Positions 30,075 to 32,238 of a DNA stretch of 32,238 nt are shown piece after piece (positions within the stretch are counted from its first letter, which is position 1; each line of letters opens with the position of its first letter). The position numbers were made by a program, and so were the translations under genes. The DNA lies in contig JAIBEI010000029.1 in assembly GCA_019459055.1 (NCBI GenBank), forward strand, positions 1 through 32,238, written 5' to 3'. The DNA is from Thiobacillus sp. Its GTDB lineage: Bacteria; Pseudomonadota; Gammaproteobacteria; Burkholderiales; Thiobacillaceae. The notes below the pieces were generated by a model. That model made no database searches. It was not told the origin of the DNA and saw only the letters and a program-made list of their open reading frames with translations.

Positions 30075-31481
30075 ATGCTCCCTACCCTGGTTCTGGTCGG
30101 CCGGCCCAACGTCGGCAAGTCCACCCTCTTTAACCGTCTCACCGGCACGCGCGACGCGCTGGTGCACGACCTGCCGGGGATGACGCGCGATCGCCATTAC
30201 GGGCGGGGGCGCCTCGGTGAAAAACCCTATCTGGTGGTCGACACGGGCGGTCTGGAGCCGGTCGTCACCGACGGCATCCTCGCCGAAATGGCGCGGCAGA
30301 CGCTGCAGGCCATCGACGAGGCCGACGCCATCATTTTCCTGGTCGATGCGCGGGCAGGCCTGACGCCGCAGGACAAGCTGATCGCCGACCGCCTGCGCCG
30401 CGCGCGTTGCCCGGTGCTGCTCGCGGTCAACAAGGCCGAAGGCATGAACGCCGCCGTGATCACCGCCGAGTTTCATGAACTGGCACTGGGCCAGCCGCTG
30501 GCCATTTCCAGCGCGCATGGCGACGGCGTGTCCGACCTGGTGGCCGAGGCGCTGGCGCCGTTTTCCGAAGAGGAAGAGCAACGCGACGATTTCGGCATCC
30601 CCAAAATCGCGCTGGTGGGGCGCCCCAACGTCGGCAAGTCGACACTGGTCAACACCCTGGTGGGCGAGGAGCGCGTGATCGCGTTCGACCAGCCGGGCAC
30701 CACGCGCGATTCGATTTACGTCGAGTTCGAGCGCGACGGCAAGCCCTACATCCTGATCGACACCGCCGGCCTGCGCCGTCGCGGCAAGGTGTTCGAGACG
30801 GTGGAAAAATTCTCCGTCATCAAGACCCTGCAGGCGATCGAGGACGCCAATGTGGTGGTGCTGGTGCTCGACGCGCATGAGAACATTTCCGAGCAGGACG
30901 CGCATCTGGCCGGATTCGTGCTGGAAACCGGGCGCGCGCTGGTGGTCGCGGTCAACAAGTGGGACGGGATTTCCGCGGAGCAGCGCGAGGACGTCAAGCG
31001 CGACATCGGGCGCAAGCTGGCGTTTCTCGACTTTGCCCGCTTCAACTACATTTCGGCGCTGAAGGGCAAGGGCCTGGAAAACCTGCTGAAGGACATCGAA
31101 GCCGCGCACGCCGCCGCCTTCATCAAGCTGTCGACGCCGAAGCTGACAAGGGTGCTGGAGATGGCGGTGGAACAGCACGCGCCGCCCAAGAACGGACTGT
31201 TCCGCCCCAAGCCGCGCTACGCCCACCAGGGCGGCAAGAATCCGCCGGTCATCATCCTCCACGGCAATGCGCTGGAAGGCCTGCGCGACGATTACAAGCG
31301 CTATCTGGAAAGCAGTTTCCGCAAGGCGTTCAAGCTGCAGGGCACGCCGCTGCGAATCCAGATCAAGGAAGGCGGCGCCAGCAATCCGTTTGCAGGCAAG
31401 ACACGCGGCCCGCTGAACGAAAGCGAAGCGACGCGGATGCGGCGGAAGAAGCGGGTGCGGCGCAAGGTATACGGCAGCTGA
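30075..31481 (+). CDS. der: Der (EngA), double GTPase for 50S ribosome assembly
   Basis: Der has two GTPase domains and acts in the late assembly of the large ribosomal subunit. The 468-residue protein has GRPNVGKS at 9-16 and again at 182-189, DTGGLE and DTAGLR switch II motifs, and NKAEG and NKWDG specificity motifs. A C-terminal KH-like domain has a highly basic tail ([15 protein letters not shown]). No good ribosome-binding site precedes the ATG; the frame is open 21 codons upstream but the family start is here. A 114-base gap separates it from bamB. A tandem structured repeat follows directly. Confidence 0.96.
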
Positions 31482-31485
31482 ATAT

Positions 31486-31712
31486 CCACCCGCAAGGGGC
31501 AGGCCGGGGTTGTTCCCGCGAGGGGAGGCCAGGTCTGTAAAGCTGCTAAAGCAGCAACAGCCATGCCGCTGAAGCCGATAAATCGGCAACAACCACGCTC
31601 CACCCGCGAGGGGTAGGCCGTGGTTGTCCCCGCAAGGGGGAGGCCATGTCTGTAAGCTGCTAAAGCAGCAACAGCCATGCACTAAAGCCGATAAATCGGC
31701 AACAACCACGCT
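31486..31712. repeat. Tandem pair of 113-114 bp structured elements
   Basis: Copy 1 is 31486-31599 and copy 2 is 31600-31712; they differ at about 11 positions. Each contains two CCC-GNRA-GGG hairpins (loops GCAA or GCGA) and hairpins GCTGC-TAAA-GCAGC and GCCGA-TAAA-TCGGC. A closing stem (copy 2: CGTGGTTGT 619-627 of the last kilobase with ACAACCACG 702-710, that is 31619-31627 with 31702-31710) encloses three hairpins, making a multi-branched fold. GNRA loops occur only on the plus strand. Possible roles are mRNA 3'-end stabiliser of der, bidirectional terminator, or a dispersed REP-like element. Confidence 0.85.
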
Positions 31713-31963
31713 CAGTCCAGCCAGCGCACCAGATAAAACAGCCTGAAGCCTTCCGACGAACGCGAGGGGCCGCTGGCGATGGCCGCGTAGCGGCCCTTGA
31801 CCGGGTCGGCGTGCGCCAGCGCCTCGGCTTCGCTGGCGTAAATTTCGACCACGCCTTCCGGGAAGCGCTGGCGCTTCTTGCCGGAAGGCGAATAAATCAC
31901 CACCGCCGAAGTGCCGACGACATTCGACTCGATATCGCTGAACAGGCTGGTGGATTGCGGCAT
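31712..31963 (-). CDS. Small unrecognised protein (83 residues)
   Basis: The protein has no signal peptide or membrane helix. It has a Ser/Val-rich start, a SAVVIYSPSGKKRQRFPEGVVEIYASEAEALAHAD segment that reads as beta strand, basic turn, beta strand and helix, and a C-terminal FRLFYLVRWLD strand. The family is not recognised. Its stop touches the end of the tandem element. Its ATG is one base from the stop of the upstream gene on the same strand, so it is probably translated by coupling; no ribosome-binding site is seen. Confidence 0.65.
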   Translation of the reverse strand: MPQSTSLFSDIESNVVGTSAVVIYSPSGKKRQRFPEGVVEIYASEAEALAHADPVKGRYAAIASGPSRSSEGFRLFYLVRWLD

Positions 31964-32184: not shown

Positions 32185-32238
32185 GGGTGGGGGTTGGGGG
32201 GGGGGGGGGGGGGAGGATGGGGTGTAGTGGGGTGTGTT
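32185..32238. other. G-rich low-complexity tail, probable contig-end artefact
   Basis: The last 54 bases consist almost only of G with scattered T and A, including a run of about eighteen G. The shift from ordinary coding sequence is abrupt. This looks like poor-quality read ends, not genomic sequence. Confidence 0.7.

Follow-up and report, generated by a model that had tools for sequence, protein, structure and literature searches.

The window analyzed here, a stretch of 32,238 nucleotides from Thiobacillus sp., carries on its plus strand the gene der (30075 to 31481), which encodes the EngA GTPase with its Pfam MMR_HSR1 and EngA KH-like domains. It is followed on the minus strand by a convergent gene of 83 aa (31712 to 31963) that is without a Pfam match and whose DNA has a match in each of the 30 loci examined, the own locus among them. 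The contig ends in a low-complexity G-rich run (32190 to 32238), probably an assembly artefact. The repeat lying between the two genes consists of four copies of a 57-nt hairpin-forming DNA insert, two of which are inserted inside the other two.

All four units lie on the plus strand, and the first begins after five bases that follow the der stop codon. The left half of outer unit 1 (31487 to 31512), delimited on the sequence and, at its left junction, by the empty allele of a relative (L119), comprises the H1 hairpin CCCGCAAGGG, the linker GCAGGCC and the 5' strand of the closing stem up to the nesting point. Inner unit 1, a 56-nt covariance model match of 63.1 bits, occupies 31513 to 31568, and the right half of outer unit 1 (31569 to 31600, again delimited on the sequence) supplies the inner hairpin, the 3' strand of the closing stem (ACAACCAC at 31589 to 31596) and the end GCTC. 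Outer unit 2, with both halves read in the same manner, starts with the H1 hairpin, GTAGGCC and GTGGTTG (31601 to 31626), holds the 56 nt of inner unit 2 (31627 to 31682; covariance model match of 77.2 bits) at GTGGTTG^TAAAG and closes with its right half at 31683 to 31713, the last two bases of which, TC, form the TGA stop of the convergent gene together with A31714. Removal of inner unit 2 from copy 2 yields a perfect 57-nt unit, and removal of inner unit 1 from copy 1 a 58-nt unit.

The sequence-only reading had described this locus as two adjacent copies of a multi-branched element of about 113 bp. Both copies are present (approximately 31487 to 31600 and 31601 to 31713), their longest matching blocks showing 88% (41 nt), 97% (32 nt) and 95% (19 nt) identity, and both contain the inner hairpins and the closing stem, formed by GGGGTTGT or GTGGTTGT with ACAACCAC. 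The differences it had listed between the copies can likewise be read in the sequence: the loop switch from GCAA to GCGA, the change from CCC/GGG to CCCC/GGGG, and the mismatch of G31507 with A31595 in copy 1 that is a T31621-A31708 pair in copy 2. The 113-bp element is not, however, the natural unit, which is instead a 57-nt unit carrying a second one, and the earlier reading had overlooked one more hairpin on the left side of both copies (31489 to 31498 and 31603 to 31612).

The unit is laid out as the H1 hairpin, a G[T/C/G]AGGCC linker, the stem strand GTGGTTGT, an inner hairpin, ACAACCAC and GC[A/T]C. The consensus obtained by aligning blastn pieces by eye reads Y[A/C]CCCGCAAGGGG[T/C/G]AGGCC-GTGGTTGT-AAAGCC....GGCA-ACAACCAC-GC[A/T]C, so that units begin with Y[A/C]CCCGC and end in ACGC[A/T]C. 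The loop of H1 is GCAA, of the GNRA type, and the main stem comprises eight pairs closing round the second hairpin. In copy 2, GTGGTTGT at 31620 to 31627 is fully paired with ACAACCAC at 31702 to 31709, and the RNA fold drawn in the earlier reading is the one predicted (-53.3 kcal/mol, z -4.67, 0 of 200 shuffles as good). The same drawing fails for copy 1 taken alone, the minimum-energy fold of which differs and lacks the closing stem (-47.5, z -2.53, 4 of 200 shuffles as good).

The element recurs far beyond chance. The own genome yielded 22 blastn pieces, and a covariance model built from 18 of its units matched 29 units there and more in relatives, the many further copies being in support of the earlier reading. 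Under stricter filters, which lose weak matches, model searches found at least one unit in 36 of 36 genomes of the same genus (own included) and in 3 of 24 other genomes of the order; in a wider sample of the order, units were present in 35 of 349 genomes and 16 of 147 genera, and in a sample of the class in 2 of 320 other genomes. The matches listed by a pattern scan include Thiobacillus denitrificans RG, T. thioparus DSM 505 and many Thiobacillus MAGs, as well as Sulfuriferula, Gallionella, Sideroxydans and Sulfuricellaceae MAGs.

Sibling elements that have the H1 hairpin in common, but mostly TACGCC and other 3' halves, were observed at positions 979 and 2797 of locus L419, 5518 of L421 (minus strand), 749 of L422, and 904, 958 and 1012 of L423, and in the own coaE (L013, 1352 to 2182). 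A 54-nt sibling type, present in genome G002 as three tandem copies with a 54-nt period, reads in frame as APARGTPPDARPSGGLGA within a DUF3418/HA2 helicase-like ORF, and CoaE contains a similar peptide; other siblings lie within ArgS-like and RecJ-like ORFs. A subtype with the stem GGATTCGT/ACGACTCC (L033, L036, L037, L040 and L041) lies within a longer repeat, perhaps another mobile element, with the common flanks CCTGCCTTTG ... TCTCGC.

Nesting occurs at a fixed site. When every model match in the own genome (29) and in G032, a relative (59), was considered, 10 of these 88 units, six and four respectively, were nested, and all of them lie at one interior point, GTGGTTG^TAAAG or a close variant. 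The same nesting point was found in 31 nested arrays drawn from all loci, a biased sample in that 40 source loci were picked for likeness to the array of the window; nested pairing of the stems in these arrays was better than crossed pairing in 20, equal in nine and worse in two (L004, L360). Three balanced levels are present in two arrays (L005, L360). Unbalanced words (LLR, LRL, LRR) were also found, partly through parser limits and contig ends.

The der spacer itself exists in several states. A survey of 36 genomes returned 30 loci, of which 26 were scorable (own included; der lay off the locus in four), with units read by eye. The spacer is without a unit in 16 of the 26, and in six of these the gap spans just 12 to 33 bases. 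The ten occupied spacers comprise one LR, two LR.LR, one LLRR, two LLRR.LR, one LR.LLRR, the own LLRR.LLRR and two degenerate arrays. This series shows units being gained (or lost) step by step, both in tandem and by nesting, and gene conversion between neighboring der units, whose nested inner units are alike, is possible. The empty allele in L119, TGAATATC|AGTTC, compared with TGAATATC, unit array and AGTCC in the window, is consistent with the 57-nt boundaries.

In order to characterize insertion targets, both flanks were read for all 59 model matches in G032, using simple patterns that need the target head directly to the left of the unit. On this basis, 22 units follow GTAGGAG-like REP heads, nine lie in loops of CGTC-type REPs, four in another unit and 24 elsewhere, two of the latter being further GTAG REPs by eye; units show a single orientation within each of the three named target types. 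The CGTC-type target is the loop of TGGATTCCGGC..GCCGGAATGACG and variants, read from the other strand, and its name rests on PMC3733652. Among the sequences examined, empty copies of three REP targets were found in 38, 15 and 13 distinct contexts, and comparison with the filled copies matches the junctions base for base. The junction GTAGGAG^GCCCG is unambiguous and reveals neither duplication nor loss of the target. Other junctions fall in an apparent terminator stem-loop (L231) and, in Gallionella records, in further REP-like palindromes. Left flanks vary (GGAG, GTTG, CGTT, CTTT, TATC), with no conserved target tetranucleotide. When 120 of 123 LR arrays (three had short flanks) were tested for a palindrome across the junction, 11 of the 61 flank clusters reached p<0.05 and 8 reached p<0.01; with control shifts of -40, -30, +30 and +40 bases, 0, 2, 8 and 0 clusters, respectively, reached p<0.05. 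Since the +30 control gave 8 such clusters, hairpin targeting is claimed for the named target types, for which it is clear, and not for all sites.

By eye, unit ends differ between GTAG-REP subtypes: GCAC terminates 16 of 17 units in one subtype and GCTC six of seven in the other. A T tag goes with a GCAC end and a C tag with a GCTC end at a Fisher p of 0.013 over all LR arrays, 0.035 with one array per flank cluster and 0.41 in G032 alone. The cleavage by TnpA_REP with GTAG as a guide, described in PMC8266576, supplies the idea for a similar model of the unit, whose end would be chosen by the tag base; these data give a hint of it.

Copies are also found within genes, where the 57-nt insert amounts to 19 codons. 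The own coaE encodes 276 aa in one frame, along which the Pfam CoaE match falls into three stretches. Among the 34 of 36 same-genus genomes for which coaE pieces were listed, own-like inserts, called from the adjacency of those pieces, are present in five (own, G002, G006, G007 and G023) and absent from 29. At the first coaE site, G002 has a sibling outer element without the 57-nt unit, and the own genome has that element with a flush unit. By ORF and Pfam, further reading-frame cases are a MutY-like ORF (L052; a weak unit of 47 bits), a UvrD-like helicase in a relative (L076) and the N-terminus of a pyruvate:ferredoxin oxidoreductase (L053), whose start codon is unsure.

The proposal that differences between copies mostly preserve pairing extends to the family. 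Across the 18 own-genome units, both-side changes occur in 9 of 18 pairs, and the 29 cells changed on both sides compare with a shuffled mean of 7.9, no shuffle in 500 reaching as high; covariation in the stems is strong and is seen at each level of the structure. In 177 distinct units, the 1416 cells of the outer stem comprise 1286 Watson-Crick, 27 G.T, 28 A.C and 75 other combinations, and the 885 cells of the inner hairpin 852, 6, 7 and 20, respectively. An RNA made from the plus strand should tolerate G.U above A.C, and one made from the minus strand the reverse. The balance between G.T and A.C therefore favors a DNA structure, or correction of the arms at the DNA level, and the earlier assignment of the plus strand as the RNA is not supported, since selection on the RNA of one strand should favor one mismatch over the other. 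A structured RNA conserved for function after der, such as an mRNA 3' end stabilizer, attenuator or terminator, would account for the array directly following der, for the stable predicted folds and for the compensatory changes, and REPs of other species do lie at gene 3' ends according to PMC3733652. Such a role is nevertheless improbable, given the equal mismatches (27 versus 28), the absence of units from the der spacer in 16 of 26 scorable loci and the presence of copies inside genes, in coaE in both orientations; neither a promoter-like nor a terminator-like site was found when looked for in 31380 to 31820. Membership in an Rfam RNA family was rejected, with no match at the gathering threshold in the window and none at E up to 1 in 31400 to 31800, in agreement with the sequence-only reading, which knew of no named family.

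We interpret the unit as a dispersed, non-autonomous, REP-like DNA hairpin element of 57 nt that would be inserted as single-stranded DNA by an HUH/Y1-type enzyme acting in trans, a reading to which we assign a probability of roughly 0.6. Its insertions would be flush, neither duplicating nor deleting target bases, and would fall within DNA hairpins or next to them. In GTAG-type REPs the fixed site would be the point directly following GTAGGAG, and in CGTC-type REPs the loop; a terminator loop and a fixed point in the interior of the unit would serve as further sites, the last of these producing nested arrays that can be written with balanced brackets (LR, LLRR, LLLRRR). At der, the unit would have entered the gap between two convergent genes, and it is probably carried for the most part as a passenger, to no evident advantage for der. 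The combination of flush insertion, hairpin ends, fixed strand per target type and hairpin targets suggests a single-strand transposase (HUH, whether Y1/IS200-like or RAYT), which would place the unit on exposed hairpins and presumably carry it from target choice to insertion. Y1 transposase genes were detected in 29 of 36 same-genus genomes; a unit lies within about 1.5 kb at one of 31 Y1 loci, units (2 to 22 per genome) are also present in the seven genomes in which no Y1 gene was detected, and unit copy number correlates weakly with Y1 number (Spearman 0.33, p 0.053). Because of these figures, and because other repeats accompany the own Y1 genes, the enzyme itself is one that we infer only.

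The hypothesis that the unit is the RAYT's own REP was rejected, as both RAYT-like genes of the own genome have other repeats alongside. These two Y1/RAYT-like genes, in L023 (G000:C42) and L024 (G000:C4), are accompanied by short palindromic repeats of their own, GTAGGAGCGGCG.. and GTAGGGTGCAC.., which differ from the 57-nt element. The repeat TTTATGCCCTCTGGGTACGATT recurs near a RAYT-like gene in L285 (1301 to 3400; G009:C8), and a similar stretch, TTTATGCCCTTCAGGGTGCCC, was seen inside an element in L245. In the two neighborhoods read in relatives (L284, L285), the units near a Y1 gene sit within REPs. Twenty hand-picked sources, chosen partly for known nearby units and not all with a Y1 gene, gave a match in six, one of them weak. 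No autonomous partner with the same ends was found among the 16 left modules of the loci examined for which no partner stem was detected; some of these modules are outer halves of nested arrays or degenerate.

Much of the dispersal could in principle be indirect, the unit having inserted rarely and most copies having spread as passengers in RAYT-driven GTAG REPs and in CGTC REPs. About 24 of the 59 G032 units do share site and orientation in GTAG REPs, and the by-eye difference in unit ends between REP subtypes points the same way; as a general account this is doubtful, since the same boundaries recur in unrelated targets (the der spacer, coaE, the unit itself, a terminator loop and other REPs), although the REP-borne copies may represent few insertions spread along with their REP. 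The palindromes might alternatively have been grown and corrected by replication template switching or slippage, not by transposition, with homogenization of the arms giving the covariation. Homogenization of inverted-repeat arms is reported elsewhere (abstracts of PMC8604942 and PMC7202029), and the equality of G.T and A.C is what this process predicts. By itself, template switching explains neither how similar 57-nt units come to lie at unrelated sites with exact junctions nor why all 10 nested units share one nesting point, so that it is an unlikely origin of the family; it may still maintain the pairing of the arms once a unit is in place. A DDE or IS110-type enzyme is a very improbable agent of insertion, even though IS elements of five families target REPs (PMC1525189). 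Unambiguous junctions, GTAGGAG^GCCCG for example, have neither a shared core nor a duplication, which speaks against DDE enzymes and against recombinases that match a core.

IS200/IS605 elements insert flush, without duplication. The single-strand element proposed here resembles derivatives of that family in its hairpins near the ends and its lack of target duplication, and its fixed orientation per target type recalls the palindromic ends and strand-specific single-strand transposition of IS200/IS605 in PMC8266576; it differs in having no constant target tetranucleotide, and no linked tnpA with these ends was found. Other parallels are found among REPs. PMC3733652 describes GTAG and CGTC REPs, some within palindromes and some in frame in genes, with GTAG ends often giving stop codons. 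Like the GTAG REPs of that account, which are associated with RAYT (TnpA_REP), the unit is short, palindromic and dispersed, can lie at gene ends and in frame in genes, carries a G[T/C/G]AG motif beside a stem and can provide a stop codon with its end. GTAG REPs are placed mainly at the 3' ends of convergent or co-directional genes; the unit is so placed at der, and some unit copies are intragenic. Unlike a GTAG REP, a stem-loop of 20-40 bp with an unpaired terminal GTAG, the unit spans 57 nt with two stem systems and bears its motif internally, where H1 is joined to the main stem. Its targets include GTAG REPs and copies of itself, and no RAYT gene was found to have it as its flanking repeat (1 of 31 Y1 loci with a unit). 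Like CGTC REPs, it is a small palindromic repeat without a dedicated transposase, and some CGTC REPs lie inside other palindromes (PMC3733652); the ends of the unit, Y[A/C]CCC and GC[A/T]C, include no terminal CGTC, and CGTC-type REPs serve here as targets. Compared by description only, Rickettsia palindromic elements also occur as palindromes in frame in genes, but self-nesting is absent from the passages of PMC3733652 consulted. The use of REPs as insertion targets is shared with IS1397, IS621 and ISPpu9 (PMC1525189), which are full insertion sequences with transposase genes, in contrast to a 57-nt unit without duplication. Classical DDE-dependent MITEs differ by their target site duplication, the unit being flush against empty targets. 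Searches of open-licence PMC papers gave none that was recognized as describing such an element.

The more far-reaching notion that this is a 57-nt hairpin hyperparasite recognizing the hairpin structure of DNA, whether in other REPs, in a terminator loop or in itself, with flush insertion at a structure-defined point, arrays as nested brackets, a candidate single-strand integrase and tolerance in frame in genes such as coaE, is put forward tentatively.

Few mobile sequences in bacterial genomes are as small as REPs, and the way in which these come to occupy their sites is, to our knowledge, poorly known. The family described here adds to the small palindromic repeats and is distinguished by nesting in itself and by landing flush in REPs. 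The base-exact pairs of empty and filled sites, at REPs and in the unit itself, make insertion chemistry and target rule directly testable, and the family illustrates that a hairpin element can give rise to recursive structures and can lengthen conserved proteins by segments of 19 residues.
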